64,000 bases of DNA from Sphingomonas cavernae. GTDB taxonomy: Bacteria; Pseudomonadota; Alphaproteobacteria; Sphingomonadales; Sphingomonadaceae. The position numbers and the translations under genes were made by a program. Every line of letters starts with the position of its first letter. Within the stretch, counting starts at the first letter, position 1. The stretch spans positions 1,178,001 through 1,242,000 of the forward strand of contig NZ_QYUM01000002.1 in NCBI RefSeq assembly GCF_003590775.1, written 5' to 3'. The notes under the pieces are model-generated. The model was not told the origin of the DNA, did no database searches, and saw only the letters and a program-made list of their open reading frames with translations. Below, one piece after another: positions 7,262-42,822 of this stretch.

Positions 7262-7502
7262 GGCGGCGCATGCGCTGCAAACGCCAACATCGGATCGCGC
7301 GGGTTACGCGCCATATATTTTGGCGCCAATTCTTTGCAGATGATTGTGCGTGATTTATACAACACGTTCCCATGATTTCGAATGAAATTGCTATATTTGT
7401 CCGGACATATTATCAATATTTGTCTGGACAAATATTTTTAACCTTCCAAAGTCGCCGCCACCTTGCGGCTGCGGCCGCGCCTGAGGGGAGGGACAATCCG
7501 AA
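7262..7502 (+). promoter_or_regulatory. AT-rich control region of the TonB receptor operon with two operator-like palindromes
   Basis: GC content drops sharply between about 7300 and 7445. Two dyads of the same design lie 23 bases apart centre to centre. Site 1 has the perfect core TGTCCGGACA (7398-7407). Site 2 (7415-7436) is a 22-base palindrome around TTTGTCTGGACAAA with one central mismatch. Site 2 ends 66 bases before the ATG at 7503, and GGGGAGGG serves as ribosome site. Spacing of about two helical turns suggests cooperative binding of a dimeric repressor on one face of the DNA. The palindromes are seen; the repressor (GntR at 22452) is inferred. Confidence 0.75.
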
Positions 7503-9896
7503 ATGCGACGTTCACGGTTCTCGACATATAGCTTCGCCTGGCTGCTTTCCGGAGCGGCACTGACACTTGCGGGCGCGCCCGCCCTGGCGCAGTCGGCACC
7601 CGACGATGTCACTGAAGAGGTCGATAGCGGCGACGCCATCGTCGTGACGGCGCGCAAGCGCGCCGAAACGCTGCTCGACGTGCCGATCGCGGTCAGCGCA
7701 TTCAACGGCGCCTCGATCCAGGACAAGATGGCGCAGGACATCACCGACCTCGCCGATTTCACCCCCGGCTTCCAGATCCAGGAAGCCTTTGGTCGCGACG
7801 GTGACCGCCCCGTGATGCGCGGCGCGTCCAATATCCTGTTCAGCGAAGGCAAGGTCGGGATTTTCCTCGATGGCGCGCCCTATCTCGGCGATTTCTCATC
7901 GCTCGACCTCGCGAATATCGAGCGCGTCGAGGTCATCAAGGGGCCGCAGTCGGCGGTGTTCGGCCGCGGCACGCTGAGCGGCGCGATCAACGTTGTGCTC
8001 AAACGCCCGACCGACGAGTTCGAGGGCCGCGTTTCGGGCACGATCGGCAATTTCGATCGCCGCGAACTGAGCGCCGCACTCTCGGGTCCGATCATCGACG
8101 GCATCGGCTTTCAGGCCGGCGTCAAATTCTTCGATATCGACGGCCAGTGGCGCAACACGGCGGTGCCGGGCGAACGCCTTGGCGATCAGAACACCAGACA
8201 ATACACCGCCGGCCTGTTCTTCGATCCGACTGCGGACATCAGCGCCTCGGTGCGCTGGCTGCATCAGGAGGATGATGACAGCCATTTCGCGATCGGCCTT
8301 CAGCGGTCGAGCGCGAACAACTGCTTCCTCACCACCCGCCCCTATTATTGCGGCGTCGTCCAGCCCATGGACAGCTTCGGCATCAATACCGATCGCCTTG
8401 TCCGGCCGGGCCTTTATCGCAACGCCGACCGCTTTATCGGCGACATCTCGTGGGATATCGCGGGTTCGGGCTACGAAGCGTCGCTCCAGGCGGGGTATAG
8501 CGACCTGACCGAGGTCAACGGCGTCGACCAGACCTATGACGATCGCGGATTCTATTTCCTGCCGCAGGCATCGTGCGGCAGGCCGCCCTTCTTCGCGCTG
8601 CCCAACCAGGATTGCCGCAAGTCCAGCTTCGAGGCGACGACGGGCATTCGGCGCAAGACGCAGACCTATGAAGGCCGTCTGACTTCACCCGGCGACGACC
8701 GCTTCCGTTGGCGCCTTGGCGCTTTCTACAGCGAAGACAAACAGCGCGGCATGACTGAATATCTCGAGCTGAACGAGGTCGGCCCCGAGCTGCTCGACGA
8801 TACCAAGCGCGTGAAGAACACCGCCTTCTTCGGGGGCATCGATTTCGACGTCAGCAGCACGGTGACGATCGGCGCCGAGCTTCGCCACCAGATCGACAAG
8901 GTATACAGTGACACGCCGTCCTACCGCGTCGGCGATGTGTTCGACGCCGCCTATCTGGCGACGGTGACGAGGCCCAATCCGAACCAGATCGTTGGCGTCG
9001 AAGGCACGCGCAAGGCGACCTTCAAGGCGACGCTGCCGCGTATCACCGTCAACTGGAAGCCGCAGAACGACCTGTCCTTCTATGCGCAATATTCGCAGGG
9101 CAACTCGCCGGGCGGCTTCAACAAGGCGAGCGCGCCTGACCCGACCTATGACGAGGAAGAGCTGATCAACTACGAGATTGGCATGAAGACGTCGAAGTTC
9201 GGCTTCGATTACCTGAACTTCGCCGCCTTCTGGCAGGACTATAAGAACCAGGTGCTCACCAACACCTATATCGCGGGCAATATCGTCGACTCGTACAGCG
9301 TGAATATCGGCCGGACGCGCATCCGCGGCATCGAGATCGACGGCCAGCTTCCGCTCGTCGGCGACATATTGAAGCTCCAGTTCAACTACAGCTTCCTCGA
9401 TGCCGAGATCCGCGAGGGCGTGGAGGCCGAAAAGGCGCTCCAACTGATGGGGCGCTCGTGCAAGACGGGCACTGCGGTCAATCTCGACCTGCCCGGCTGC
9501 CGCGAGGCCGCGTCGATCGCGGGCAATCGTCCGCCGCTGGTCTCCAAGCACACGGGTACGCTCGGCGTGCGCTTCCAGCACGATGTCGGCAACGACTGGA
9601 CGTTCTTCGCGGGCTCGGACGTGATCTATCGCAGCAGCTATTATGCGCAGGTGCTCAACCTTGCCGAAAGCGGCAACTCGACCAAGCTCAACCTGCAGTT
9701 CGGCGTGCATGACGATCAGGGGATGCGCGTTACCGTCTATGGCAAGAATGTGCTGGGCGACGAGACCCCGATCGGCATCCTGCGCTATCTCGACTTCCCC
9801 GCGCCACGTACGCCGACGGGAGACTATGCCCGTGCCTTTGGCATCACCCCCGCGCGCAAGGCGGAGTTCGGGATCACCGTCAGCAAGTCCTTCTGA
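7503..9896 (+). CDS. TonB-dependent outer-membrane receptor, copy 1
   Basis: The product has 797 residues. A signal peptide ends at PALAQS, and a TonB-box-like segment (DAIVVTARKR) leads into the plug domain (VPIAVSAFNGASI, VMRGASN, VEVIKGPQSAVFGRGTLSGAINVV, about residues 45-165). The 22-strand barrel follows, ending in a C-terminal Phe (VSKSF) recognised by BAM. It imports a substrate too large or scarce for porins, energised by TonB-ExbBD. In sphingomonads such receptors often accompany catabolic clusters rather than siderophore genes. Two operator-like palindromes lie upstream and a terminator-like hairpin downstream. The cargo is presumably the substrate of this island. Confidence 0.93.
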   Translation: MRRSRFSTYSFAWLLSGAALTLAGAPALAQSAPDDVTEEVDSGDAIVVTARKRAETLLDVPIAVSAFNGASIQDKMAQDITDLADFTPGFQIQEAFGRDGDRPVMRGASNILFSEGKVGIFLDGAPYLGDFSSLDLANIERVEVIKGPQSAVFGRGTLSGAINVVLKRPTDEFEGRVSGTIGNFDRRELSAALSGPIIDGIGFQAGVKFFDIDGQWRNTAVPGERLGDQNTRQYTAGLFFDPTADISASVRWLHQEDDDSHFAIGLQRSSANNCFLTTRPYYCGVVQPMDSFGINTDRLVRPGLYRNADRFIGDISWDIAGSGYEASLQAGYSDLTEVNGVDQTYDDRGFYFLPQASCGRPPFFALPNQDCRKSSFEATTGIRRKTQTYEGRLTSPGDDRFRWRLGAFYSEDKQRGMTEYLELNEVGPELLDDTKRVKNTAFFGGIDFDVSSTVTIGAELRHQIDKVYSDTPSYRVGDVFDAAYLATVTRPNPNQIVGVEGTRKATFKATLPRITVNWKPQNDLSFYAQYSQGNSPGGFNKASAPDPTYDEEELINYEIGMKTSKFGFDYLNFAAFWQDYKNQVLTNTYIAGNIVDSYSVNIGRTRIRGIEIDGQLPLVGDILKLQFNYSFLDAEIREGVEAEKALQLMGRSCKTGTAVNLDLPGCREAASIAGNRPPLVSKHTGTLGVRFQHDVGNDWTFFAGSDVIYRSSYYAQVLNLAESGNSTKLNLQFGVHDDQGMRVTVYGKNVLGDETPIGILRYLDFPAPRTPTGDYARAFGITPARKAEFGITVSKSF

Positions 9897-9918
9897 GGGC
9901 CGCTGACGTGAATTGGGA

Positions 9919-9963
9919 GGGAACGGGATGCGCCATCAACCGCGCGGCCCGTTCCTCTTTTCG
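9919..9963 (+). terminator. Stem-loop with T-rich tail after TonB receptor
   Basis: GGAACGGG (9920-9927) pairs with CCCGTTCC (9948-9955) across a 20-base loop that can itself pair partly. The tail is TCTTTTCG. The site lies 23 bases past the receptor stop and 30 bases before the next gene, so it may set receptor transcripts above the downstream genes rather than stop all transcription. Confidence 0.55.
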
Positions 9964-9992
9964 TCTCCACACCGCATAACTCCGGAGCCTCA

Positions 9993-10298: not shown

Positions 10299-10330
10299 CC
10301 CCTTTTTCATCCACGATCGAGGAACCCCAC

Positions 10331-10636: not shown

Positions 10637-10648
10637 GGAGGGCTGACA

Positions 10649-11623: not shown

Positions 11624-11631
11624 GGCGCGAC

Positions 11632-19865: not shown

Positions 19866-21169
19866 GCTGGCTCCGGACGTGTGAAATAGGAAAGCGGATC
19901 TGAAAACAGGCGCGGATCGGGCTCGCTCGCGGCAAGTTCGCGCGCGAGGCTGCGTTTGGTGTCGGTCTGTGCGGGGCTCATCGCCGCCTGCGGATGGCCG
20001 AGCGTATTGGGGATGACGCGTTCGACGACCGAACCGTCAGTGCGCGTCACCACCAGCCTCTGCGGCGACAGCGCGTTGAGGTCGCCATTGCCGTCGAGCG
20101 TGATCGATAGCTTCGCCGCCAACGCGCCGATCGCGGGATCGGCGAAGGTGGCGGGCGTGAAGCGGCGCGGATCGATGCGGCGGTCAGTGAGCATCAGCGC
20201 GACGAGCAGCGGCAGGCACAGCCGCGCATAGGCGGGCGTCATGTCCGGTTTGAGCGGTCGCCCCACGAGCCGCTGGATCAGCGGGGGCACGAAAGCCTCG
20301 ATCTTCGAAACCGACGTGGCATCGACCGCGCCTTCGCGCAGCAGCGTGTCGAGCGTCGCCAGCACCGCATGGCTCGCACGGCCCGACGGGAAGGGCTTGA
20401 TACTAACCTCGGCGATCCGCCACACGCTGCCGAGCGCGTCGGCATAGACCGCAGGATCGCCCTCGTCGAACAGGCTGAAATAGCCGAAAGGCCCTTCGAG
20501 CGCATCGTGCGGGCCGGTCAGCCCCGCCTTCACGAGGTCGACCGCCGCGATCGCCGCACGCGCAGCGCCCGCGATCTGCAACGGCAGTGCGATCGAGCCC
20601 TCGACATGCGCCTGCATCGTCCCCGCGCATTGCGAATAAGCGAGCCCCAGCACGTCCTCGAAATTCTCGACCCGGTCGATCCGCGCCACCGCGAGCGCCG
20701 ATCCGATGCAGCCGGCGGTTGCGGGGCGGAAGAAGCTAAGCGGCGTCGTCGCCGAAATGCCGAGGCCGCTTGCGATATCGACGCCCACCGCCAGCGCTGC
20801 GAGCGCCTCGTCAGGATCGCAGCCGCCGCGCCGGTCGATCGCCGCCATCACCGACGCGGTGACGGTCGAGAGCGCATGCACCACCGCGGGCTCGTGCACC
20901 GCGTCCCATTCGAGACAATGGATCTGGAAGGCGTTGACGAAGGCCGCGCCCGCTGCGGGCAGGCGGACATCGCGCGCGATTATGCGCGCATCATTCCCCT
21001 GCCCCCACCCCTGCGCGGCGGTCAGGACAGCATCGGCACCCGGCGCGGTTGATCCCGCAGCGCCCGTGGCCAGTGTATCGCCAAGCAGATGGATCGCTGC
21101 ATCGCGCACCTCGGGCAGAAGTCGGTGTTCCGCGCGCGCGAAGTCGAGGATACGCCCTGTCGCGCTCAC
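19862..21169 (-). CDS. MmgE/PrpD family protein, copy 1
   Basis: This 435-residue protein of the MmgE/PrpD fold (2-methylcitrate dehydratase, cis-aconitate decarboxylase, iminodisuccinate epimerase) shows GDTLATGAAG, LECDAVHEPAVVHALSTVTA and IKPFPSGRASHAVLATLD, the last matching the conserved KPYPCCR-type segment. The GTG start at 21169 overlaps the preceding stop by four bases; upstream frame is not protein-like. Such proteins act on branched tri- or dicarboxylates, in line with a pathway ending in diacids. It is only distantly similar to copy 2. Confidence 0.85.
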   Translation of the reverse strand: MSATGRILDFARAEHRLLPEVRDAAIHLLGDTLATGAAGSTAPGADAVLTAAQGWGQGNDARIIARDVRLPAAGAAFVNAFQIHCLEWDAVHEPAVVHALSTVTASVMAAIDRRGGCDPDEALAALAVGVDIASGLGISATTPLSFFRPATAGCIGSALAVARIDRVENFEDVLGLAYSQCAGTMQAHVEGSIALPLQIAGAARAAIAAVDLVKAGLTGPHDALEGPFGYFSLFDEGDPAVYADALGSVWRIAEVSIKPFPSGRASHAVLATLDTLLREGAVDATSVSKIEAFVPPLIQRLVGRPLKPDMTPAYARLCLPLLVALMLTDRRIDPRRFTPATFADPAIGALAAKLSITLDGNGDLNALSPQRLVVTRTDGSVVERVIPNTLGHPQAAMSPAQTDTKRSLARELAASEPDPRLFSDPLSYFTRPEPA

Positions 21170-22407
21170 AGCCAGTCCTCCAAAAGCGCGGTGATGTCGG
21201 ACACACGATCGCCTTCGAGCGTGATCCGGATCGCGTCCTCCATCGCGGCAGCGTCGACTCCGCCCCATGCCATGAGCGCGCGCGCCTTTTCGATCACGCC
21301 TTGTTCGGAAAGGGGGCGCTCAGGATCGCCAAGCGCATCAGCAAGCACGACCGCGCCCAGATCGGTCGAGACGCCCGCTCCGAAATGCACGGGATAGACG
21401 TTCGTGAATTGCTCGTCCTCGATGACGCTCACCAGCGCGCGCGTCTCGGCCAACGCCGCAATCGCTTCGGGCTCGAAGTCGGCGAGTTGCGGCACGCCGC
21501 GCTCCATCACGATCGCGATCGCATGCTGGAGAGAGAATTTCGCCTCGATCACGTTCGCCGGATCGGCCCGGTCGCAAAAGACCAGTGCGTCACGGTAGGT
21601 CGAAACCGTAACCGGCCCCTCAAGCGCGCCCTTCGCCTTCAGTTCAAGCGCGGCGTCGATCGCCGGATGCGCATGGCGGCATGCGCCCCAGGGCTTGAAG
21701 CTCACCTCGCCGATCCGCCATTCTTCGGGCAGGTCCAGTGGTTTGGGCGCGTCGCAGGTTGCGGCGAATAGCCCCTGCGGTCCCTCGAAGATGAGCCGCG
21801 GTCCGGTGACGCCCGCCACCGCCTGCCGCGCTGCCGCGCTGCCTGTCGTCATCGCATGCGCCAGATGCCATTGTTTGGCCATCACCGGCTCATGTCGCAT
21901 CTGCCAGAAGCCGCCCGTTACCGACCCGGCCAGCCCAAGCGCCGAGACGAGTTGCGTCTCGCTCGCGCCGAGCCTGAATGCCGCCGCAGTCGCAGCGCCA
22001 AAGCCGCCGGCCGTCGCCGTGTTGTGCCAATAGGCATAGTGCCGGCCGTCGAGCATCGAACCGATCGCGATCATTGCGTCATAACCACGCACGCCCGCAT
22101 CGAGCGCTTCGTCGAGCGAGTCTGTTCCGACGCCGAGTACGGTAGGCCAGATGACCGGCCCGGGGTGCAGGATGGCGGCACGGTGGACATCGTCCATTTC
22201 AAGCACGTTGCCAAGCCACGCGGCCTTGCCTGCCGCGTCCCCGCTCAATCGCCCCTGAATTCGGGCAATTTCCGAACGTCTTGCGCCCGCGACACAGCCA
22301 AGCCAGTCAAGCAGATGCAACCGCGATCTTGTCCGTACAATATTTTCTATCGGACGTTGCAGATGCTGTGCAAGCCGTTCGGTTACGCTATGATTGACCG
22401 CGCTCAT
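21166..22407 (-). CDS. MmgE/PrpD family protein, copy 2
   Basis: This 413-residue protein begins MSAVNHSVTERLAQHLQ and carries HLLDWLGCVAGARRS, AILHPGPVIWPTVLGVG and SFKPWGACRHAHPAIDA, conserved in the family. It is the first gene of a nine-gene minus operon and divergent from the GntR regulator with only 44 bases between starts. The ATG at 22407 has GGAG upstream. Two family members in tandem may form a heteromer or act on sequential intermediates; no reaction can be assigned from sequence. Confidence 0.85.
   Translation of the reverse strand: MSAVNHSVTERLAQHLQRPIENIVRTRSRLHLLDWLGCVAGARRSEIARIQGRLSGDAAGKAAWLGNVLEMDDVHRAAILHPGPVIWPTVLGVGTDSLDEALDAGVRGYDAMIAIGSMLDGRHYAYWHNTATAGGFGAATAAAFRLGASETQLVSALGLAGSVTGGFWQMRHEPVMAKQWHLAHAMTTGSAAARQAVAGVTGPRLIFEGPQGLFAATCDAPKPLDLPEEWRIGEVSFKPWGACRHAHPAIDAALELKAKGALEGPVTVSTYRDALVFCDRADPANVIEAKFSLQHAIAIVMERGVPQLADFEPEAIAALAETRALVSVIEDEQFTNVYPVHFGAGVSTDLGAVVLADALGDPERPLSEQGVIEKARALMAWGGVDAAAMEDAIRITLEGDRVSDITALLEDWL
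22329..22340. promoter_or_regulatory. Candidate operator, one-mismatch copy of the island palindrome
   Basis: TTGTCCGTACAA differs by one base from the TTGTCCGGACAA core found at 28050, 28841 and 42807. It lies inside the first codons of the MmgE/PrpD gene, 67 bases from its ATG, and 112 bases upstream of the GntR start. It could serve autoregulation of the regulator or repression of the divergent operon, but may be chance in coding sequence. Confidence 0.4.
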
Positions 22408-22451: not shown

Positions 22452-23213
22452 TTGTCGGCTGCAGTTCAGAAGGCCACGAGAAATGGCGGCAAGAAGCCGC
22501 GCTATCAGGAACTTGCCGAAGATTTGCGCGCGGGAATATTGCGCGGCGACTATCCCGATCCCGCGCACTTCCCCACCGAAAGCGTGTTGTGCGCACGCTA
22601 CGGCGTCAGCCGCTTCACCGTCCGCGAGGCGCTGCGCTCGCTGCAGACCGAAGGCCTGATCCAGCGCAAACGCGGCTCGGGCACCGTGATCCAGCCTGCC
22701 TCGGCGCGCGGCGGCGCGCTGCACCAGCCGCTGTCCAACGTCGGCGAGATCCTTCAATATGCGCGCGACACGAAATATCTGTTCACCGCGCAGGGCACGA
22801 CGCTGCTGCCCAGGAAGATGGCGGCGCACATAGCCGAACCTGTGAGTGGTCGCTGGTACCATTTCCGCGGCCTCAGAACGCGTCAGGGCCAGGCCGAGCC
22901 GATCGCGCTGACCGATGCCTATATCCACCCCGATCTCGAAACCGCTGCGCGCGAGATTCGTCCCAATGAGGACACGATCTTCCGTCAGCTCGAACGCCTC
23001 TCCGGCGTCAAGATCGCGCGTGTGACGCAGGACATACAGGCCGTTCCCGCCAGCGGCCCCGTCGCCGCCGAGCTGGGCGTTCCGCGCCGCAGCCCGTGCC
23101 TCCGGATCCTGCGCTGCTATCTCGACGCCACCGGGCGCATCATCGAGATTTCGGCGAGCCATCACCCCGGCGACCGCTTCGCCTACACCATGCATATCGA
23201 GGTCGATAACTGA
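22452..23213 (+). CDS. GntR family regulator, HutC/UTRA subfamily
   Basis: This 253-residue protein has an N-terminal winged helix (PRYQELAEDLRAGI, then FPTESVLCARYGVSRFTVREALRSLQTEGLIQRKRGSGTVI, about 15-78) and a C-terminal UTRA effector domain. The start is TTG at 22452 with GGGGAG upstream. UTRA regulators bind palindromes with GT-N4-AC design; HutC sites resemble TTGTATATACAA. The island palindrome TTGTCCGGACAA has the same length and ends, so this protein is the best candidate for its repressor, with a pathway intermediate as inducer. It sits between two catabolic minus-strand operons. Confidence 0.9.
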   Translation: MSAAVQKATRNGGKKPRYQELAEDLRAGILRGDYPDPAHFPTESVLCARYGVSRFTVREALRSLQTEGLIQRKRGSGTVIQPASARGGALHQPLSNVGEILQYARDTKYLFTAQGTTLLPRKMAAHIAEPVSGRWYHFRGLRTRQGQAEPIALTDAYIHPDLETAAREIRPNEDTIFRQLERLSGVKIARVTQDIQAVPASGPVAAELGVPRRSPCLRILRCYLDATGRIIEISASHHPGDRFAYTMHIEVDN

Positions 23214-23217: not shown

Positions 23218-24306
23218 TCAGCCATCGGCGCCGAGCTCCGGCGCCGCTTTGGGCTCCCATTGCCTATCGCTCGCAAAGCGGATCGGCGGCGCGATATGGT
23301 GCGCGCCGCCGACCTCAACCACGAGCCCCCGCTCGGCAATATGCGGCTCGGAAAATGCCTCGCGAAAATCGAGAACCGGCGAAAAGGCGACATCCTTGTC
23401 GGCGAACCATTCAACCCATTGATCGCGCGTCCGCCCGGCGAAGGTTTCGCGCAGGAACGCGATCAGCGGCGCCTGGGCTTCGCCCGGCGCTTCGCTGCCC
23501 AGCGGGATAAGGTCGGGCCGTTCGAGCGCGCCCAGCAGGTTGGCGACGAACTTCAGCTCGCGCCCGCCGAGCACGACATGCCGCGCGTCGGCGGTTTCAT
23601 AGACATTGTAGAAGGCGGCACCACCCAGCGAACGCTGGCTGGCCGAGCGCGGTGGCTCACCACCGCCGATCGCTGCACCCGCGATGTGCGCGCACCAGGG
23701 GAGCATCGAATCGAACATGGCGATATCGACATAATCGCCCTTGCCGCTTTTTTCCCGGCCGATCAGCGCCATCAGCACCGCCGACAGAGCAGTCAGCCCA
23801 GCAGCCATGTCGGCTGAGGGCGCGCCCGGAACCACGGGCATGCCGTCGACACCGTCATTGACCGACAGAAAGCCCGCCACCGCCTGCACCGCCATGTCGT
23901 GGGCGGGATGATGCGCCAGCGCGCCGGTCTGCCCGAAGGCGGAGATCGAGCAATAGATGATGCGCGGGTTGCGCGCAGCGACGGCCTCATAGCCGAAGCC
24001 GAGTCGCGCGGTGACGCCGGGTCGAAAGCCCTCGACGAAGACATCGGCCTCGTCGATCAGCGCCCAGAGCGCCTCTCGCCCGGGATCGCTTTTGAGATCG
24101 AGCACGACGCTTTTCTTGCCGCGATTGAGATTGCGGAACCAGATCGACTGGCCCGCCTCGAAGGGCGCCTGATCGCGCGCGGGATCGCCCGCGGCAGGTT
24201 CCACCTTGATCACCGCGGCGCCCTGATCGGCCATCATGACCGAGAGCATCGGTCCCGGCAGGAACTGCGAGAGGTCGACGACCTTTATGCCCGAAAGCTT
24301 CCCCAT
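23218..24306 (-). CDS. CaiB/BaiF family CoA-transferase (class III), copy 1
   Basis: This 362-residue type III CoA-transferase has VVDLSQFLPGPMLSVMMADQGAAVIKVE at the N-terminus, GKKSVVLDLKS and the catalytic Asp in HHPAHDMAVQAVAG (about 149). These enzymes move CoA from a donor thioester to a carboxylate such as succinate, itaconate or mesaconate. It is the last gene of the CitE operon; its ATG at 24306 lies four bases after the preceding stop. It ends four bases from the convergent GntR gene. Confidence 0.92.
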   Translation of the reverse strand: MGKLSGIKVVDLSQFLPGPMLSVMMADQGAAVIKVEPAAGDPARDQAPFEAGQSIWFRNLNRGKKSVVLDLKSDPGREALWALIDEADVFVEGFRPGVTARLGFGYEAVAARNPRIIYCSISAFGQTGALAHHPAHDMAVQAVAGFLSVNDGVDGMPVVPGAPSADMAAGLTALSAVLMALIGREKSGKGDYVDIAMFDSMLPWCAHIAGAAIGGGEPPRSASQRSLGGAAFYNVYETADARHVVLGGRELKFVANLLGALERPDLIPLGSEAPGEAQAPLIAFLRETFAGRTRDQWVEWFADKDVAFSPVLDFREAFSEPHIAERGLVVEVGGAHHIAPPIRFASDRQWEPKAAPELGADG

Positions 24307-24310
24307 CGGA

Positions 24311-26670: not shown

Positions 26671-26684
26671 GTCGGTTCTTTTCC

Positions 26685-27194
26685 TTAATCGTCCGCGGGA
26701 CCGAAGCCACGCTTCCAGATGAGCATGGTTCGGTTGAAGGTGCACACGATATCGCCGTGCTGGTTCTTGCCGATCGTCTTGACGGTGACGATGCCCTGTT
26801 CGGGCCGCGAGCTCGACTCGCGCTTTTCGAGCACCTCGCTTTCGGCATAGAGCGTGTCGCCGGGGAACATCGGCTTGGTCATCTTGATGTTGTCCCAGCC
26901 GAGATTGGCGACCGCCTTCTGGCTGAGGTCGGACACGCTCATGCCTACCATCAGCGCCACCGTGAGCGGCGAGCAGATCAGCGGCTTTTCAAACTCGGTC
27001 TTCTTGGCGAATTCATAGTCGAAATGCGCCGGGTGCGTGTTCATCGTCAGCAGCGTGAACCACACATTGTCGGTGTCGGTGATGGTGCGGCCGGGGCGAT
27101 GCTCATAGATGTGGCCCACCACGAAATCCTCGTAATAGCGCCCGAAAGATTCACGGAAGCGTCCGGGGCTGACTTCGATCACACCGTCACGCAT
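26685..27194 (-). CDS. MaoC-like hydratase (mesaconyl/itaconyl-CoA hydratase type)
   Basis: This 169-residue hot-dog fold protein carries YYEDFVVGHIYEHRPGRTITDTDN, MNTHPAHFDYEFAKKTEFEKPL and a C-terminal FNRTMLIWKR. The motif with HPAHFD and EF resembles the mesaconyl-CoA and itaconyl-CoA hydratase branch. It would hydrate an enoyl-CoA diacid to a malyl- or citramalyl-type CoA, the substrate of the CitE-like lyase encoded just upstream. The ATG at 27194 overlaps the CitE gene by eight bases. Confidence 0.88.
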   Translation of the reverse strand: MRDGVIEVSPGRFRESFGRYYEDFVVGHIYEHRPGRTITDTDNVWFTLLTMNTHPAHFDYEFAKKTEFEKPLICSPLTVALMVGMSVSDLSQKAVANLGWDNIKMTKPMFPGDTLYAESEVLEKRESSSRPEQGIVTVKTIGKNQHGDIVCTFNRTMLIWKRGFGPADD

Positions 27195-28017
27195 CTTGCT
27201 TGCTCCGCATTGCCAATATCCTTTGATAACGCCGCATGATCGGTGCTTCGAGCATGCGGCCATTGAAACGAACCGCGGCCCCACCGGCCGCGTCGAAAAC
27301 CCTTTGTGCCTCTTCCGCCTCGGCGATCTGCTCGGCCGTCGGACGGAATGTCGCGTTGATCGTGTCCACCTGCGCGGGGTGGATCGCCGCCTTGCCCGTG
27401 AATCCCAGCGCCTTGGCGGCCTCCGTTTCGGAACGCAGCCCTTCGGCATCGTCGAGCGCGATGAAGGGCACGTCGATCGCGGGAATCCCCGCGCCTGCAC
27501 ATGCCATCACGAAGGCGCCGCGCGCCGATCGCAACGGCTCCCAGGCCAGCGCCACGCCGAGTTCGGCGGCAAAATCGCCACCGCCGAACATCATCGCAGC
27601 AACGCAGGGCGCCCCCGCGATCTCGTGTGCGGCCCTGAGCCCCTTCACCGTTTCGATCAGTGGCACGACGCCCGGCGTTCGTTCGCCAAGCACCGATGCG
27701 ATGATCGCGATCTGCGCCGCACTCTCGACCATCGGAACGAAGATCAGCGCGGGGAGCACCGCGGCATCGGCGAGCGCGAGCAGATCCTCGAGGCCCGCGC
27801 GCGTCGTCATGCCGTTGATGCGGAGGATGAGCCGCGGATCGCCTTCTGCGATCGCTGCGATCGCCGCGGTGCGCGCATCGGCCTTGCCCGATTCGGGAAC
27901 CGAATCCTCAAGGTCGATGCACACCATATCGGCGCTCGTGGCGAGCGCCTTGCCGTAGCGTTCGGGCTTAGAGCCCGGCACAAACAACATCGATGAAAGG
28001 CCAATGGCCGCGTTCAC
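27187..28017 (-). CDS. HpcH/HpaI-CitE family CoA lyase
   Basis: This 276-residue protein resembles the CitE beta-subunit and malyl-/citramalyl-CoA lyases: FVPGSKPERYGKA (about 12), CIDLEDSVP (about 33-41, acidic residues for Mg), ILRINGM (Arg for the carboxylate), VPLIETVKG and FGGGDFAAELG (metal ligands), KAAIHPAQ. It cleaves a hydroxy-acyl-CoA into acetyl- or propionyl-CoA and a keto acid. I choose GTG at 28017, seven bases after GGGAGG; a TTG at 28023 is too close to that ribosome site. It is the first gene of its operon, 33 bases from an operator palindrome. Confidence 0.9.
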   Translation of the reverse strand: MNAAIGLSSMLFVPGSKPERYGKALATSADMVCIDLEDSVPESGKADARTAAIAAIAEGDPRLILRINGMTTRAGLEDLLALADAAVLPALIFVPMVESAAQIAIIASVLGERTPGVVPLIETVKGLRAAHEIAGAPCVAAMMFGGGDFAAELGVALAWEPLRSARGAFVMACAGAGIPAIDVPFIALDDAEGLRSETEAAKALGFTGKAAIHPAQVDTINATFRPTAEQIAEAEEAQRVFDAAGGAAVRFNGRMLEAPIMRRYQRILAMRSKQDA

Positions 28018-28049: not shown

Positions 28050-28061
28050 TTGTCCGGACAA
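28050..28061. promoter_or_regulatory. Operator palindrome upstream of the CitE operon
   Basis: TTGTCCGGACAA is a perfect 12-base palindrome. On the minus strand it begins six bases after a TTGACT that fits a -35 element, so it lies in the spacer between -35 and a weak AT-rich -10, the place where a repressor blocks polymerase. It is 33 bases upstream of the CitE start. The dyad is seen; promoter placement is inferred. Confidence 0.75.
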
Positions 28062-28102: not shown

Positions 28103-28783
28103 TCAGAAAGGCTTCACCGCGCCGAGGTAGGAGGTGACAATCAGCAGGCCATAAACGATGAAAACCCAGATGCGGGTGCGGTCCATGGTCCGGCGAAGTG
28201 GCACCTCGGTCTCGTCGCTCGACCCTTCCTTGAGCAGCCGTGCGAGCTGCGGGCCCACGGGCTTGAAGGCGACGTCGATCATGATCGCGGCTACGAAGAT
28301 CAGGCCGAACAGCAGCGCCTTGGCGGCGAGCCACTTCTCGGCGAGCGGCGCGCCGGTGGCGAGCGAAACTGCGCCCAGCCCGAGATAGCCGAGCGTGATC
28401 GCGTTCTTCAGCCAGAACTCGATTCGCCGGTTGCGCGCGGCGCGCGGCGTCATGTCGTGAAAATGCGCATCCCAGACCAGCCAGAGCCAGATCAACCCTG
28501 CCGCCCAGGCGCCCGCAAGCACGAGTCCCGGCACCGCCCAGAAACCGCCCAGCGTCACCACCGAAAGCGACACGGGAACCATCAGCGCCCAAGCCGTCCG
28601 CGGCGTCATGTCGATCAGCACGAGCAGCTTCAGCAGCGCGATTCGCTGGTCAAGCGTATAGAGATGGCGCTTGCGGAAATGTTGCCCGGCAAGGAATACG
28701 CCAACATCGCCGCCCAGCCACAACACAAACAGAAACAAGTGAAAATAGACGAGGCTTGGATAGGCCAGATCGCTCAATGTCAT
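28103..28783 (-). CDS. Multi-helix inner-membrane protein, paralogue of 4471 gene
   Basis: This 226-residue protein has about five to six transmembrane helices. Helix 1 carries YFHLFLFVLWLGGDVGVF, with His and WLGG like the 4471 protein, and before the last helix EGSSDETEVPLRRT matches EGPTDETNAIIKRT of that paralogue. A His-containing loop (WDAHFHDMTPR) lies near the middle. Function is unknown. The ATG at 28783 has GGGAGA upstream. It is divergent from the second TonB receptor, with the operator palindrome at 28839 between them, and is followed by the CitE operon on the same strand. Confidence 0.75.
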   Translation of the reverse strand: MTLSDLAYPSLVYFHLFLFVLWLGGDVGVFLAGQHFRKRHLYTLDQRIALLKLLVLIDMTPRTAWALMVPVSLSVVTLGGFWAVPGLVLAGAWAAGLIWLWLVWDAHFHDMTPRAARNRRIEFWLKNAITLGYLGLGAVSLATGAPLAEKWLAAKALLFGLIFVAAIMIDVAFKPVGPQLARLLKEGSSDETEVPLRRTMDRTRIWVFIVYGLLIVTSYLGAVKPF

Positions 28784-28813: not shown

Positions 28814-28854
28814 TTGACAGTGTGACAGTTACATGAAAATTTGTCCGGACAAAT
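28814..28854. promoter_or_regulatory. Operator palindrome in divergent membrane protein / TonB receptor promoter
   Basis: ATTTGTCCGGACAAAT (28839-28854) is a perfect 16-base palindrome, 56 bases from either gene start. A TTGACA at 28814 could be the -35 of the receptor promoter, and the -10 region would then overlap the palindrome. Binding here could control both directions at once. Confidence 0.78.
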
Positions 28855-28910: not shown

Positions 28911-31412
28911 ATGAAACGCCTTCTGCTTGTCGCGACCACCGCGCTGTCGGCGAGCCTTGCGGTTGCACCGCTCCACGCCCAGACTGCCGACGCCGAAACG
29001 CCCGCCGCGGAAGCGGAAGAATCGACGGGCGGCATCGAGGATATCGTCGTCACGGCGCAGCGGCGCTCGGAAAGCCTTCAGGACGTGCCGATCGCGGTTT
29101 CGGCGTTCTCGGCGGATCAGCTCCGCAGCCAGGGCGTGTCCAACACGCTCGAGCTCGGCCGCTTCGTCCCCAACCTCGTCTCGATGAACAACACGGGCAT
29201 CGGTTCGGCAAACGCCTTCTACCTGCGCGGCCTCGGCAATACCGAGACGATCCCGACCTTCGACCCGCCCGTCGGCACCTATGTCGACGACATCTATCTC
29301 AGCCGCCAGAACGCCAACAACATCAACCTGTTCGACGTCGAGCGCGTCGAGGTGCTGCGCGGTCCGCAGGGCACGTTGTTCGGCCGCAACACCACGGGCG
29401 GCGCAGTCAACGTCATCCTGAAGGAACCCGGCAAGGAATTCGGCGGCTTCGCCGAAATCGGCTATGGCCGCTACGACAAGAAGATCGCGCGCGGCTCGGT
29501 CGACATTCCGCTCGCGGAGAGCTTCGCGATCAAAGTCAGCGGCTATTGGCAGGATGACGACGGCTATGTGAAGAACGTCACCACCGGCCAGCGCCTCAAC
29601 GACGATGACGGCTGGGGCGCGCGCCTCGGCATTCGCGGCGAGTTGAGCCCCTCGGTCCGCTGGAACGGCTCCTATGCGCACATTGTCGCCAATGGCGAGA
29701 ACATCCTGAACTTCCAGTGCAACCCGGCGGATCCCACCGATTGCAAGGGCCGTTTTGCCACCACCGGCATTCCCTCGGGCAAAAGCGCGGCGGATTCGCC
29801 CTTCGCAACACTCCCGATCAGCGGTCGCAAGAAGACCTTCCTGATGGGCAACTATACGACCACCGATCTGGTCACCTCGAACCTCGAACTCGACGTCGCC
29901 GAGAACACCTCGGTCAGCCTGATCACCGGCTTCATCAGCCAGGATCAGCAATATGCGATCGACTTCTTTGACGGCCGCAGCGGCCCCTCGCTCGCCAACC
30001 CGACGCCGCCCGTCCGGGGCTTTGCGCGCGGCGGCTTCTCGATCCTCAACGACAGCCAGCATGAGCAGTTCAGCCAGGAAATCAAAGTCAACGGCAGCCT
30101 GGGCGACGGCCTGATCGATTATGTCGCGGGCGCCTATTATCTGGTCGAGGAAAACCGCACCGACTTCGCGGATACCTTCACGCTCTCGCCCGCGACGACG
30201 CTGGTCCTCGCCGACCGCATCCTGCGCAACAAGACCGAGGCGCTGGCCGGCTATGCGCAGGTCGACGTCAATGTCACCGAGCAGCTCAAGCTGACCGCCG
30301 GCGTGCGCTACACCGACGAAACCAAGACGGTGAGCGTCAACGACAACCGCGCGAGCTGCAACGACGGCACGCTCGAGCCCACCTGCATGGACACCGTCAA
30401 TCTGATCGGACCTTCGGGTCTCAGGGTGCCCGACAAGCTCAAGGCCAAGCTGTGGACGCCGCGTTTCGCGGTCAACTACAAGGCGACCGACGACATTCTG
30501 CTCTTCGCCTCGGCGACGCGCGGCTTCAAGTCGGGCGGCTGGAACGCGCGCGCCACCGCGGCCAATGCCTTCCTGCCCTTCGGTCCCGAAAAGGTCTGGA
30601 GCTACGAGACGGGGATCAAGTCGGACTGGTTGGACCGCCGCGTGCGCGCCAACCTGACCTTCTTCTACACCGATGTCAGCGATGTCCAGACTCCGTCGGC
30701 GCTGGTTTCGCCCAGTGGCGCGGCCACCTTCATCACGCGCAACTTCGCCGACATGACCAACAAGGGCGTCGAGGCCGAACTTACCTTCGTGCCCGTCGAT
30801 GGGCTCAATCTCTATGTCAATGCGGGCTATCAGGACGCCAAGTTCAAGATCGACCGCGACGCGCCCGATCTCGATGAATATGGCATCATGTCTGTCGCGG
30901 CACAGCAGCGCGCGTGCCAGGCGCTGCTCGCTGTGGGCAATATCCCCGGCGGCACCGGCACAACCGCGTCCTGCGGCGCGGGCATCGTGACGCCTGAGGG
31001 AGAGATCGCTGATCCGACGCGTACGCCCAAATGGACCATCGCGTTCGGTGGCAGCTACGAGCTCGAACTGGGCAGCAGCGGCATGTCGCTGGTGCCGTCG
31101 ATCAACGCGAGCTATCGTAGCAAGCAGGAAACCAACGCGGCCAACTACACCATCTATTCGGGTTCGATCACGGGCACCAACGGCACTTTTCCCGCGAACC
31201 CCTTTGATGGTGACATCATCACGGGTTCGTTCTCGCCGGCCGCCTGGTTCGTCAACGCCAACCTGGCGCTGAACGGGGCAGACAAGAAATGGCAGCTCTC
31301 GATTGCCTGCACCAACTGCTTCAACGAGACCGCCGCCAACACCTCGCTGGTGAACACGCGCTATATCGACCAGCCCATGACGTGGATGGCGCGCGCGCGG
31401 TACAGCTTCTAG
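28911..31412 (+). CDS. TonB-dependent outer-membrane receptor, copy 2
   Basis: The product has 833 residues. The signal peptide ends at APLHAQ. The segment GIEDIVVTAQRRSESLQDVP is the TonB-box region leading into the plug (VEVLRGPQGTLFGRNTTGGAVNVI). The barrel ends in a C-terminal Phe (RARYSF). The style matches sphingomonad OAR-like receptors used for aromatic or polymer-derived compounds. It differs well from copy 1, so the two may take up different forms of the substrate. The ATG at 28911 has GAGGGAG upstream. Confidence 0.93.
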   Translation: MKRLLLVATTALSASLAVAPLHAQTADAETPAAEAEESTGGIEDIVVTAQRRSESLQDVPIAVSAFSADQLRSQGVSNTLELGRFVPNLVSMNNTGIGSANAFYLRGLGNTETIPTFDPPVGTYVDDIYLSRQNANNINLFDVERVEVLRGPQGTLFGRNTTGGAVNVILKEPGKEFGGFAEIGYGRYDKKIARGSVDIPLAESFAIKVSGYWQDDDGYVKNVTTGQRLNDDDGWGARLGIRGELSPSVRWNGSYAHIVANGENILNFQCNPADPTDCKGRFATTGIPSGKSAADSPFATLPISGRKKTFLMGNYTTTDLVTSNLELDVAENTSVSLITGFISQDQQYAIDFFDGRSGPSLANPTPPVRGFARGGFSILNDSQHEQFSQEIKVNGSLGDGLIDYVAGAYYLVEENRTDFADTFTLSPATTLVLADRILRNKTEALAGYAQVDVNVTEQLKLTAGVRYTDETKTVSVNDNRASCNDGTLEPTCMDTVNLIGPSGLRVPDKLKAKLWTPRFAVNYKATDDILLFASATRGFKSGGWNARATAANAFLPFGPEKVWSYETGIKSDWLDRRVRANLTFFYTDVSDVQTPSALVSPSGAATFITRNFADMTNKGVEAELTFVPVDGLNLYVNAGYQDAKFKIDRDAPDLDEYGIMSVAAQQRACQALLAVGNIPGGTGTTASCGAGIVTPEGEIADPTRTPKWTIAFGGSYELELGSSGMSLVPSINASYRSKQETNAANYTIYSGSITGTNGTFPANPFDGDIITGSFSPAAWFVNANLALNGADKKWQLSIACTNCFNETAANTSLVNTRYIDQPMTWMARARYSF

Positions 31413-32764: not shown

Positions 32765-32765
32765 C

Positions 32766-38826: not shown

Positions 38827-40260
38827 TCAGACCCTCATCGTTTCCTCCGAATAGGCCGCGAGCGGCAGCGCGATCCCCGATTGCCGGATGATCGCCTGCC
38901 GGCGGAAGAAGCGCAGCAGGCCGCTCTCACCCATGCGCGACGGGCCGAGCCCGCTCTTGCCGAAGCTCGATTTCTCGGCCTCCCAGACGAGCCCGGTCAG
39001 CGATCCGTCGTTGATCGAGACGCCGCCCGCGTTGAGGCGCACCGCGACCGCCTCGGCCTCTTCGGTGCTGCCCGCGAGCACCGCCGCAGAAAGCCCGAAG
39101 ATGCCGCTATTGGCATGCGCCACCGCCTCGTCGACCGTATCGAACACCGTCACGGGAATGACGGGGCCGAAGGTCTCCTCCTCCATGATCGCCATGTCTG
39201 GGGTCACGTCGACCACAACCGTCGGGCGCAGATATTTCCCGCCGCCGAGCGTCTCGACCTGGCCGCCCGCAAGCACCCGCGCCCCTTTCGCCACGGCGTC
39301 GTCGATCTGGGACTGCACGATCTCCGCCTGCCGCGCGAAGATGAAGGGGCCGATGTCGCCCTGATGGACGTCGGGATAATTGAGTCGCGTCGCCTGCGCC
39401 TTTTCAACGAGCGCCGCGAGGAAGGGCCCGGCGATGTCGCGCGCGACATAGACGCGCTCGATCGACTGGCACGCCTGCCCCGTGTTGAGCACCGAGGCGC
39501 GCAGCGCGGTTTCCGCAGCCTTCACCGGATCGGCGCTGGCGAGCACCAGCATCGGATCCTTGCCGCCAAGCTCGAGGCTTGCGGGGATGAAGGCGCGTGC
39601 CGCCGCCTCGCCTACCTTGCGGCCGGTCGCGACCGAGCCTGTAAAGGCGATGAAATCGACATGTTCGACCAGCGCTGCGCCCGTCGCGCCGTCGCCCTCG
39701 ATCAGGGTCAGTACCGACGCGACCTCAGGCACCTCGGCGATCGCCGCCATCAGCGGGCGGATGAAGCGGGGGGTGATTTCGGAGGGCTTGATGATGACCG
39801 CGCAGCCAGCCGCAAGCGCAGGGATCGCATCGATCAGCGCCAGCGTCAGCGGGAAGTTCCACGGGCTGATCACGCCGATGAGTTGATAGGGCACCAGCCG
39901 CGTCGTGGTGGTAATCGTGGGAATGCCCGTCTGCCGGTCCCGCACCTCGGCCGCCGCGATGATCGTGGGCGCACTCTCCGCCCAGCGGATGAAGGTTTTG
40001 GTCATCGCATCGACCTCGATCACCGAGATCGCCGCGCGCCCGGTATCGGCGGTCAGCGCGGCGATCAGCGCGTCGCGGTGCCGGCCCATCGCTTCGGCAA
40101 GCTTGCGCAGCGCGGCGCCTCGCGCCGCGGGCGTCCGCGCCGCCCAGCCGGGTTGCGCCTTCCGCAAGTTCGCGGTCAGCGCCGCGATTGCAGCGCCGTC
40201 GACCGGCTCTATGCTGTAATCCGCCTCGCCCGTACGCGGATTGATGACGGCAAGGCTCAT
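38827..40260 (-). CDS. NAD(P)-dependent aldehyde dehydrogenase
   Basis: This 477-residue protein has the full family set: PWNFPLTLALID (Asn for the oxyanion hole), FTGSVATGRKVGEAAA for cofactor, the base Glu in LELGGKDP, and the nucleophile in NTGQACQSIERV. It oxidises an aldehyde to a carboxylate, or a semialdehyde from the lyase or amidase steps. The C-terminal part runs on to YSEETMRV. It is the last gene of the minus operon headed by the isochorismatase-like gene, with a four-base start overlap. Confidence 0.93.
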   Translation of the reverse strand: MSLAVINPRTGEADYSIEPVDGAAIAALTANLRKAQPGWAARTPAARGAALRKLAEAMGRHRDALIAALTADTGRAAISVIEVDAMTKTFIRWAESAPTIIAAAEVRDRQTGIPTITTTTRLVPYQLIGVISPWNFPLTLALIDAIPALAAGCAVIIKPSEITPRFIRPLMAAIAEVPEVASVLTLIEGDGATGAALVEHVDFIAFTGSVATGRKVGEAAARAFIPASLELGGKDPMLVLASADPVKAAETALRASVLNTGQACQSIERVYVARDIAGPFLAALVEKAQATRLNYPDVHQGDIGPFIFARQAEIVQSQIDDAVAKGARVLAGGQVETLGGGKYLRPTVVVDVTPDMAIMEEETFGPVIPVTVFDTVDEAVAHANSGIFGLSAAVLAGSTEEAEAVAVRLNAGGVSINDGSLTGLVWEAEKSSFGKSGLGPSRMGESGLLRFFRRQAIIRQSGIALPLAAYSEETMRV

Positions 40261-41171
40261 TGCTGCGACTCCCAGCTTGAAACGATCTCCTCGCCCGTTG
40301 CGAACCATGCTTCGGGACGTTCGGCAAGCTTCCGGAGCAATGCTTCAAAGGCCGCGATGCGATAGGGCAGCGCCATTATGTAAGGCGTGATGTGGAGCGG
40401 CAGCACGCGGCCGCCATGGGTTTTCGCCTCGCTCGCCAGCCAGTCGAACGCATCTTCCATCTGCTGCGCATAGCTGTCGGCCGATTGCTGCTGCACCGTG
40501 ACGATCTGGCGGTCGGACAGTTCATGGTTGAGCGGCAGGTTGATCAGCCCGTTGGTGAAGCGCCAGGGCAGTTCATCATTCACCCAGTCGCATGTGTATT
40601 TCAGCCCCGCTTCCTTGAGCAGATCGGGCGTGCGCCAGCTTTCCGAGCGCGCGATCGACAGCCAGCCCGTGGGGCGCTTGCCCGACGCTGCCTCGAGCGA
40701 CGCGATTGACTGTGCGATCAGCGCGCGTTCGTCGTCCTCGGGCAAGGTGCTCGCGATCGTGCCGTTCATATCGGTCGAATGCGCGATAATCTCATGCCCG
40801 TCGGCGACGATGTCCGCGATGATCTGCGGATAGCGGTCAGCGATCGCGCCATTGGTCGCGACCGAGGCCTTTACCCCCGCCTTTTTGAATGCGTCGAGCA
40901 GGCGGTAGAAGCCGATCCGCGTACCATATTCGCGCGCGGTATAGTGGCGATAATCGGGATAGCTCGTCTGCATGTGCCCCGGCGCGCGGAAGGGCGTGTC
41001 GGAAGGCGTCATCGGAAACCATTCGAGACTGACGCACACCCAGACCGCGACCAATTTGCCCGCGGGCCACGGCACGGGTTTGCGATCGAAGATCGACGAC
41101 CATGGATAGAGGTCGTGGTCATAGCCTTCGCGGCGCTTCGGATATTCGAGATAGGCGGGATCAAGCGCCAT
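40257..41171 (-). CDS. PuuE-like cyclic amide hydrolase (NodB-fold), copy 2
   Basis: This 304-residue polysaccharide deacetylase superfamily protein has no signal peptide. It starts MALDPAYLEYPKRREGYDH. Segments VAVWVCVSLEWFP, ASVATNGAIADRYP, GHEIIAHSTDMNG and GWLSIARSESWRTPDLLKEAG follow the NodB order with the His-rich metal site in altered form, closer to cyclic imidases and PuuE than to sugar deacetylases. It overlaps the next upstream gene by 11 bases. Its pairing with copy 3 suggests two subunits or two ring-opening steps. Confidence 0.8.
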   Translation of the reverse strand: MALDPAYLEYPKRREGYDHDLYPWSSIFDRKPVPWPAGKLVAVWVCVSLEWFPMTPSDTPFRAPGHMQTSYPDYRHYTAREYGTRIGFYRLLDAFKKAGVKASVATNGAIADRYPQIIADIVADGHEIIAHSTDMNGTIASTLPEDDERALIAQSIASLEAASGKRPTGWLSIARSESWRTPDLLKEAGLKYTCDWVNDELPWRFTNGLINLPLNHELSDRQIVTVQQQSADSYAQQMEDAFDWLASEAKTHGGRVLPLHITPYIMALPYRIAAFEALLRKLAERPEAWFATGEEIVSSWESQQ

Positions 41172-42063
41172 GGGCGGCCTCCGCATAATGATGTTCGTAA
41201 TAATGGTCGGCGATCTCGCCCGCGCACGCGATCCAGGCGCGGCCATCCTCGGCGATGTGGCGCAGTACCTCGGCAAAGGGGCCGATGCGGTGCGGCTGGC
41301 CGATCAGATAGGCGTGCAAGGGGATGCACATCACGGTGCCCGATTCCTCGCCTTCCTCGGCAAGGCGCTCATATTGGCGGATTAGCGTGTCGGCATAATC
41401 GCGCGGGGACATGTTGTAGACGAAGAAGCCGTAATGGTCGTTGACTTCGAGGCTGTAGGGGATCGAGACTAGGCGCCCCTGCTTCACCTTCACTGGCTGG
41501 GGCTGGTCGTCGTGATAGAGGTCGCAGGTGTAATCCAGCCCATATTCGGCGATCAGATCGAGCGTGCGCGGCGTGTGCGTCAGCGCGGGCGCCAGCCAGC
41601 CGCGGATCGTCTGCCCCGTCGCCTCGCGCACCGTGCGGATCGAATCCTCGATGATCGCGCGTTCCTGGGCCTCGTCCATGCCGTAGGTGTAGCGCGTGTT
41701 GTAGATGCCGTGGCTGAAGAACTCCCAGCCGCGCTCATTGGCGTCCTTCACTATTTCCGGGTGATGCTGGCACAGCGCGACCGAGAGCGAAACCGAGCCC
41801 GGAAAGCCGTATTTCGACATCGCCTCGGCCATGCGCCAGTGCGACACGCGGTTGCTGTGATCGCGATGCGCGAAGCCCACGACATCGGGATGCGGTTTCG
41901 TCCAGCTTTTGCGATTGGGGTTCGCGGGCGGATCGATCTCGTAATATTCGAGATTGGGCGCGACCCACACCGCGACCTTCTTGCCGCCTGGCCACGTGAT
42001 CTTCGGCCGACCGCGCCAGGGCACGAAATCGTATAGCCCGGGATCGGCTTCACCTTCGCGCAT
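41161..42063 (-). CDS. PuuE-like cyclic amide hydrolase (NodB-fold), copy 3
   Basis: The product has 300 residues: VAVWVAPNLEYYEIDPP, VVGFAHRDHSNRVSHWRMAEAMSKYG, GWEFFSHGIYNTRYTYGMDEAQERAII and GWLAPALTHTPRTLDLIAEYGLDYTCD. The SHGIYNT motif parallels SHGWRWVH of copy 1. It is cytoplasmic and, with the isochorismatase-like amidase encoded just upstream (one-base overlap), fits opening of a cyclic imide to a half-amide. Copies 2 and 3 are similar to each other but clearly separate proteins. Confidence 0.82.
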   Translation of the reverse strand: MREGEADPGLYDFVPWRGRPKITWPGGKKVAVWVAPNLEYYEIDPPANPNRKSWTKPHPDVVGFAHRDHSNRVSHWRMAEAMSKYGFPGSVSLSVALCQHHPEIVKDANERGWEFFSHGIYNTRYTYGMDEAQERAIIEDSIRTVREATGQTIRGWLAPALTHTPRTLDLIAEYGLDYTCDLYHDDQPQPVKVKQGRLVSIPYSLEVNDHYGFFVYNMSPRDYADTLIRQYERLAEEGEESGTVMCIPLHAYLIGQPHRIGPFAEVLRHIAEDGRAWIACAGEIADHYYEHHYAEAAHGA

Positions 42064-42746
42064 CAGCGGGCCTCCAGCCAGTCGATCACCGCCTGAACCG
42101 GCTCGACATCGGCATATTTGAGCTGCAGGTCGGTGAGGTTGGCGAAGTGATAGCTCTCATGCTTGTCCGCGCAGGTCTCGATGGGGACGATCGTGCGAAA
42201 GCCATAGGACAGCGAATCCACCGCGGTCGCGCGAACGCAGCCCGAGGTGCTGCCGCCCGTCACCACCACCGTGTCGACCTTGTGCCAGCGCAGATAGCTC
42301 GCAAGCGGCGTCTCGAAAAAGGCTGAGGGCATGCGTTTGGTGTATTGCAGGTCGTTCGCGTCGATCTCGCAGCGCGGGTCGAATTCGTGACGCTCGCTGC
42401 CATATTTGATGTTCTGCAGCGAATCGGGGGTGTCGGTGCGCGTGCCCCAGACGCCCGCGTCGCCCGCATCGTCCTTATACCCCACCCGACTCCAGATCAC
42501 CGGCATGCCTTTTTCCCGCGCCAGCCGCGAAATGGTGTTGGCATGTTCGATCTGCAGCGGATCGGTCTCGTAAGCGGTTTTGAACATGTCGGTGCGCGTA
42601 TAGGCCTGCTGGAAATCGACGTTCACGATCGCCAGCTTTTCGCCGAATCCGAACTTGTTACGCGCCGGATTCGCGATGATTTCTTCGAAAATCTGGCGCG
42701 CAGTCCGCCCATCGCAGACCATCCGCGTACCGATCAACGTCATCAC
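42063..42746 (-). CDS. Isochorismatase-family amidohydrolase
   Basis: This 227-residue cysteine hydrolase has the expected triad: Asp in AIVNVDFQQAY (about 44), Lys in YTKRMPSAF (about 137) and Cys in GGSTSGCVRATAVDSL (about 169). The family includes N-carbamoylsarcosine amidase and maleamate amidase, which free ammonia from half-amides or carbamoyl groups. True isochorismatases lack the Cys, so an amidase is favoured. It is the first gene of a minus operon; the promoter region is shared with the divergent hydrolase and holds the palindrome at 42805. Confidence 0.88.
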   Translation of the reverse strand: MMTLIGTRMVCDGRTARQIFEEIIANPARNKFGFGEKLAIVNVDFQQAYTRTDMFKTAYETDPLQIEHANTISRLAREKGMPVIWSRVGYKDDAGDAGVWGTRTDTPDSLQNIKYGSERHEFDPRCEIDANDLQYTKRMPSAFFETPLASYLRWHKVDTVVVTGGSTSGCVRATAVDSLSYGFRTIVPIETCADKHESYHFANLTDLQLKYADVEPVQAVIDWLEAR

Positions 42747-42804
42747 AAAACTCCTGCAAAATCGTGATTCGTACAGTAGTTTGCGAAAAGGACTTGTCGA
42801 GAGG

Positions 42805-42822
42805 AATTTGTCCGGACAAATT
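42805..42822. promoter_or_regulatory. Operator palindrome in divergent isochorismatase / hydrolase promoter
   Basis: AATTTGTCCGGACAAATT is a perfect 18-base palindrome and the longest perfect member of the set. It begins 59 bases upstream of the isochorismatase ATG but ends only seven bases before the ATG at 42830, covering the place of the ribosome site for the plus-strand gene. Binding could block minus-strand transcription and, on the plus strand, early elongation. Confidence 0.78.

Follow-up and report, generated by a model that had tools for sequence, protein, structure and literature searches.

A recurrent palindrome in a catabolic island of Sphingomonas cavernae is a predicted operator of a HutC-type GntR regulator

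A short palindrome recurs in the intergenic regions of a stretch of Sphingomonas cavernae DNA, which raises the question of what reads it and which genes it serves. The window, by which we mean the whole 64,000-nucleotide stretch (C2:1178001-1242000, on contig NZ_QYUM01000002.1 of the 4.24-Mb genome), carries the dyads among genes for TonB-dependent receptors and catabolic enzymes. From sequence comparison, we consider it very likely that the dyads are operators of a HutC-type GntR protein encoded in the window (22452-23213, forward strand), which would repress the operons of the island until a pathway intermediate releases it. The original prediction had proposed a single regulon covering two TonB receptor operons, the CitE operon and the isochorismatase operon. 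This proposal is now supported by the rarity of the motif, by its conservation, and by the way it tracks the GntR gene over 396 genomes.

The word is the 12-letter palindrome TTGTCCGGACAA, with the layout TT-GT-CCGG-AC-AA, that is, GT-N4-AC around a CG centre. A window scan with the 14-mer TTTGTCCGGACAAA gave exact matches at 28840 and 42807, matches with one mismatch at 7396, 7419 and 28049, and a match with three mismatches at 22328. The five dyads with at most one mismatch to this 14-mer (7397, 7420, 28050, 28841 and 42808) are all intergenic. Predicted operators 1a (TTGTCCGGACAT, 7397-7408) and 1b (TTGTCTGGACAA, 7420-7431) stand in tandem, 23 bp apart, upstream of TonB receptor A, which starts at 7503. 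Predicted operator 2 (TTGTCCGGACAA, 28050-28061) is 33 bp before the citE start, a GTG at 28017; predicted operator 3 (the same word, 28841-28852) is midway between the membrane protein gene memB and TonB receptor B; and predicted operator 4 (again the same word, 42808-42819) occupies the gap that separates the isochorismatase gene, starting at 42743, from the alpha/beta-hydrolase gene, starting at 42830. Perfect symmetry extends over 10 bp at 7398-7407, 12 bp at 28050-28061, 16 bp at 28839-28854 and 18 bp at 42805-42822, and the dyad at 7415-7436 is symmetric over 22 bp with a single central mismatch. A weak predicted operator (TTGTCCGTACAA, 22329-22340) is located inside the 5′ end of the PrpD-like gene prpD-B, 67-78 bases into this gene, which runs leftward from 22407, and about 111-123 bp before the divergent gntR. 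All six places in the original prediction were confirmed, and the symmetry it gave is correct to the base. Its assignment of the dyads to intergenic promoter regions holds for five of them and fails for 22329-22340.

These sites are more frequent than the composition of the window would produce. Six 12-mers with at most two mismatches were found against 1.63 expected, a number equalled in none of 100 shuffles, and six 14-mers with at most three mismatches were equalled in one of 100. We also scored the window with a weight matrix trained on 89 sites, all from other genomes. The five strong sites scored 30.4-35.8 (31.3 for operator 1a and 30.4 for 1b), the site at 22329 scored 13.7, and nothing else in the window exceeded 4; the best score over fifteen 64-kb Markov sequences was 7.0.

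The motif is also rare in the genome as a whole, where commonness in unrelated DNA had been named beforehand as a ground for rejecting it. There are five exact copies of the 12-mer in 4.24 Mb, three of them within the window, and 20 copies with at most one mismatch, compared with seven for a reversed-word control. Eleven of these 20 sites fall in two stretches (35.4 and 27.5 kb, 63 kb in total), each holding or adjoining a GntR paralog: six in the window and five in C3:508408-535875. The C3 paralog is 85% identical to the window protein and lies just past the last C3 site. Of the four UTRA genes in the genome, these paralogs make up two, and TTGTCCGTACAA is found 123 bp upstream of the start of each. 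The site at 22329 therefore remains plausible in spite of its weakness. The C3 cluster contains two TonB receptors preceded by dyads, a tandem dyad pair 22 bp apart that resembles 1a and 1b, and a DUF1330 protein 72% identical to that of the window, with a weaker dyad (TTGTCCATACAA, two mismatches) before its gene. The earlier count of at least five sites over 35 kb was thus right and incomplete, as the second cluster adds five sites with at most one mismatch and one with two. The C3 region (500000-539999; L016 and L017) also has a dyad at L016:8409, before a small gene that lacks a Pfam match and is followed by a DUF1838 gene. The nine sites outside both clusters are about what the control predicts; the best four of them score 16.8-21.7, below the five strong window sites, above 22329, and partly above the weaker C3 sites.

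To place the motif and its proposed regulator side by side, we searched 396 genomes of the order for the GntR protein. It was matched in 55 at E≤1e-20, of which 39, including the present genome, matched at E≤1e-50. The exact 12-mer occurs in 38 of these 39 genomes (218 sites, G105 alone accounting for 36), in 8 of the 16 genomes with a weaker match, and in 27 of the 341 without a match (32 sites). Distances between sites and gntR were counted in the 15 of the 39 genomes for which all exact sites were listed. With G105 set apart, 49 of 68 exact sites in the other 14 lie within 60 kb of gntR. The distant ones are concentrated in G246, G313, G233 and G386, of which G246 and G386 (70 contigs) are drafts with stray sites on other contigs.

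The motif also stands before orthologous genes in other sphingomonads; lack of such conservation had been the other ground named for rejecting it. Of the 19 loci in named genomes, the 14 from close relatives entered the site analysis, and the five weakest (L056-L060) did not; 13 of the 14 are of sufficient length to hold citE and memB. Alignment of the window proteins fixed the gene starts. An exact 12-mer stands 50-88 bp before memB in all 13 named relatives, and before TonB-B too in all 12 whose stretch includes this gene. An exact copy 29-37 bp before citE was found in 11 of the 13. The 4-kb locus L048 falls outside the citE and TonB-B scoring, and its region before gntR holds just a two-mismatch site. 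In eight distant islands, whose GntR proteins are 55-64% identical to that of the window, an exact copy lies 28-58 bp before citE in every case. The isochorismatase/hydrolase junction has one in all eight as well, 62-74 bp from the isochorismatase gene and 11-22 bp from the alpha/beta-hydrolase start (in G316, the latter gene only begins within the stretch). Paired dyads 39-43 bp apart occur in four of the eight. The sequence of the dyad and its distance to the gene start are kept while the surrounding promoters diverge. Before gntR itself, a site with at most two mismatches is present in 22 of 44 loci, window and paralog included (20 of 42 without two duplicate records), against 0.05 per 250 bases elsewhere.

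The surroundings of the dyads suggest how they may act. A TTGACA box begins 26-27 bases ahead of the dyad at TonB-B in 14 of 14 aligned rows. At citE, a TTGAC box precedes the dyad with 6-8 bases between them in the window and 11 relatives (the two Steroidobacter-type rows of this alignment are not citE promoters), so this dyad would lie in the promoter spacer. The claim that one dyad falls in a -35/-10 spacer fits the citE promoter (TTGACT, six bases, dyad), but a simple sigma-70 scan calls no promoter there.

The proposed regulator has the features expected for such a site. Its product matches the GntR domain (PF00392) with 63.9 bits (cut-off 27) and the UTRA domain (PF07702) with 66.6 bits (cut-off 23.8). 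According to the report on the NagR-DNA structure (PMC4333415), Arg48 reads G-4, Arg38 reads G-5, and the wing glycine 69 enters the minor groove. In our alignment, these residues correspond to Arg54, Ser44 and Gly75 of the window protein. Arg54 and Gly75 are kept in all 44 ortholog loci (41 distinct, three records having been met twice), and position 44 is Ser, Thr, Asn, Ala or Gly, never Arg. In agreement with these residues, G-4 is retained in the motif and position -5 is T. Directly after Arg54 stands Phe, Tyr or His where Met is common; if this residue is equated with the centre-correlated position in PMC4494728, its link to the CG centre is suggestive only. According to that paper, GT and AC are four bases apart in most HutC-type operators, and both the GT-N4-AC spacing and the DNA-facing residues fit a HutC-type protein. 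A FadR-type regulator was ruled out: FadR has two or three bases between GT and AC and its own effector domain, compared with four bases and UTRA here.

From the position of the dyads and the family of the protein, we infer a mechanism of repression. A GntR dimer would occupy each TTGTCCGGACAA and block RNA polymerase, since the dyads lie beside or within the probable promoter interval at citE and TonB-B, and at the alpha/beta-hydrolase gene just upstream of the start codon. By binding to the UTRA domain, a pathway intermediate, probably a dicarboxylate or its coenzyme A (CoA) ester or amide, would release GntR, and the uptake receptors and catabolic operons would then be turned on together. 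The weak site near gntR suggests mild autoregulation, and the 85% identical paralog may do or share the same job at the second cluster with its two further TonB receptors. The regulon looks wider than first proposed: memB and the alpha/beta-hydrolase-LeuCD-lyase operon should probably be added, the two TonB receptors of the second cluster should be included as predicted members, and gntR and prpD perhaps belong to it as well.

Several observations weigh against this mechanism or against its generality. The score at 22329 is below those of four background sites in the same genome. Citing a Fisher p of ~1e-33 for the co-occurrence overstates the case, because the genomes are related and not independent. 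No exact site lies within 60 kb of gntR in G293 (0 of 1), G233 (0 of 4) and G386 (0 of 5); G233 has two one-mismatch copies beside gntR. In G293, the 60 kb contain gntR, prpD-B and one CoA-transferase gene, with two more genes matched weakly or in part, and no site, so that site loss appears to accompany island loss; we count this genome in favour of the dyads being operators. G355 has an ortholog (52%), no island, and no exact site in its genome. In L051 and L054 (Steroidobacter agaridevorans and Peristeroidobacter agariperforans), both exact copies are in the memB/TonB-B gap and none is before citE. The simple scan called no sigma-70 promoter in the regions of three of the sites, so the argument for steric blocking is drawn solely from the conserved TTGAC boxes. 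Two exact copies in our own genome, at C2:690430 and C4:523107, are outside the clusters and have no obvious link to them; one is between a phosphomannomutase-like gene and the next gene, and the other is downstream of a flagellin-like gene (names given by eye from translations).

These two copies could also be taken to mean that the palindrome is a dispersed repeat or a chance word without a regulatory role. G105 speaks for this too: the exact word occurs there 36 times, with only three copies within 60 kb of gntR, which indicates that the word can multiply for other reasons. In this genome of the same family (contigs C1 and C2; L135-L154), TTGTCCGGACAA is present 109 times with at most one mismatch, against none for the control. 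All 20 fetched copies lie in open reading frames by a simple composition rule, although a few of these frames are short and doubtful, and one copy is 30 kb from gntR. In G105, the word has the look of a palindrome that has been iterated many times and has the same letters as an operator. In our own genome, the explanation by repeat or chance was rejected on the genome-wide rarity, the clustering and the matrix scores. Since sequence and gene distance are kept while promoters diverge, and only 27 of 341 regulator-free genomes have the word, we regard this explanation as extremely improbable. Another regulator might bind the dyads, for example the LysR protein encoded at 1087-1998 or one encoded elsewhere, with GntR a mere neighbour. 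Exact sites without a GntR ortholog in G345 (four), G168 and G385 (two each) count against the GntR protein and for this alternative. In G345, there are 26 dyads with one mismatch or none (control, 12), and another regulator may use a similar site there. However, each of the 15 cluster stretches searched contains GntR, and the other helix-turn-helix gene of the window is in none of them. LysR occurs in 2 of 15 (28-30% identity) and was rejected as the shared regulator on this count, which says little for the 20-kb named loci, as these stop short of the LysR position. The motif follows GntR in 38 of 39 genomes, and the spacing and contact residues fit the HutC type, which makes a different regulator very unlikely.

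The remaining alternative accepts GntR as the owner of the operators and makes it mainly an activator, or both activator and repressor. The sites vary in their distance from gene starts: that of TonB-A is ~71 bp upstream, that of citE 33 bp and that of the alpha/beta-hydrolase gene 11 bp, and the site of prpD-B is 67 bp inside the gene. In four distant islands, the tandem pairs with a distance of 39-43 bp might allow looping. On the other hand, the dyad is downstream of a conserved TTGAC box at citE and TonB-B, a rare place for an activator, and NagR, a studied HutC-type protein, represses (PMC4333415). We therefore give activation a low probability and keep repression by the GntR protein as the preferred explanation.

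The genes around the dyads form a catabolic island of ~47 kb (window 2062-49043), the order and content of which are largely kept in eight distant sphingomonad genomes and partly in Steroidobacter. Pfam assignments give TonB-dependent receptor A at 7503-9896 on the forward strand (PF00593, PF07715) and the MmgE/PrpD family gene prpD-B at 21166-22407 on the reverse strand (start taken as the ATG at 22407; the longest open reading frame extends to 22596). The GntR/UTRA gene follows. The citE operon (23218-28017, reverse) encodes a CitE-like lyase, a MaoC hydratase, an acyl-CoA dehydrogenase and two family III CoA-transferases. Next is memB (28103-28783, reverse), divergent from TonB-B and present in all 13 named relatives and in seven of the eight distant islands; its protein gave no match in the Pfam search. 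TonB-dependent receptor B (28911-31412, forward) is followed, to ~37674, by genes of an MFS transporter, an FAD oxidase, a C-N hydrolase and a methyltransferase. The reverse-strand operon at 38827-42743 encodes an isochorismatase-family hydrolase, polysaccharide-deacetylase-like hydrolases, which are PuuE-like (PuuE/cyclic-imide-hydrolase-like), and an aldehyde dehydrogenase. The forward operon at 42830-49043 encodes the alpha/beta hydrolase, LeuC-like and LeuD-like (Aconitase_C) subunits, an HMG-CoA-lyase-like protein and a CoA-transferase.

This enzyme set suggests that cyclic or open amides are hydrolysed and that branched dicarboxylates are then cleaved to give CoA esters and pyruvate, and the island looks built to degrade a nitrogen-containing compound via branched dicarboxylates. 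Cyclic imide hydrolases, maleamate amidases and dimethylmaleate hydratase are known enzymes of such chemistry. Taken as a whole, one HutC-type repressor may govern a widely inherited island of ~50 kb, in which a nitrogen-ring compound is imported by dedicated TonB receptors, PuuE/cyclic-imide-hydrolase-like and isochorismatase-like hydrolases together with an amidase open its rings as cyclic imides or amides, and breakdown is finished via substituted maleates (LeuCD-like hydratase, lyases, CoA-transferases), while the paralog extends the signal to extra receptors; we hold this full scenario to be rather unlikely in all its parts. As a guess, drawn from the enzyme families and general biochemistry, pyrrole or tetrapyrrole breakdown products such as substituted maleimides could be the natural substrates. 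A listings-level search of the open-licence PubMed Central (PMC) literature found no description of the island or its substrate, which is weak evidence of absence. In the same literature, the sole match to the motif was an unrelated Drosophila paper, and GTCCGGAC and GntR occurred together in none.

The regulon is new, and its regulator is of an already known kind. With an exact predicted operator and a proposed regulator for a conserved catabolic island, the genes of the island can be listed by how they are regulated, and placing a reporter behind any one of these promoters would make the substrate search an inducer screen. The known specificity rules gain a HutC-type operator centred on CG from the match between residues and bases.

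The window protein shares the GntR winged helix and the UTRA domain with the HutC subfamily (HutC, NagR/YvoA, DasR, PhnF), and its predicted operator has the GT-N4-AC of this subfamily; the consensus printed in PMC4494728, GTMTAKAC, has a TA centre, whereas the predicted window operator has CG. The protein differs from the dre-site regulators NagR and DasR, whose Arg38 reads G-5, in having Ser44 and a motif with T at -5. Its scores with equivalog models are far below the cut-offs for HutC (TIGR02018; 92 against 220 bits), PhnF (75 against 157) and TreR (61 against 212). Among known pathways, the itaconate genes rip (Ict-Ich-Ccl) provide the best NCBIfam matches for the window MaoC (RipB/Ich) and CitE (RipC/Ccl), but the scores are below the cut-offs (238 against 340 and 239 against 375, respectively), and the island adds amidases, a LeuCD-like hydratase, the PrpD pair and the acyl-CoA dehydrogenase. 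Related regulators, 31-36% identical to that of the window, are encoded on plasmids of Azospirillum argentinense and Pseudosulfitobacter pseudonitzschiae, the two records examined among 45 with a GntR match. Their genes sit among those for CoA-transferase, acyl-CoA dehydrogenase, MaoC, PrpD and CoA-ester lyase, and the palindromes TTGTACGTACAA and ATGTCCGGACAA are located in the gaps before maoC of the two plasmids. The plasmids thus have the same regulator type, the core enzyme set and related dyads before maoC; they differ in having TRAP transporters where the window has TonB receptors, and no comparable island is seen in the 29-33 kb viewed. These observations suggest that this type of regulator may have been paired with this type of operator and enzyme set before the sphingomonad island arose.

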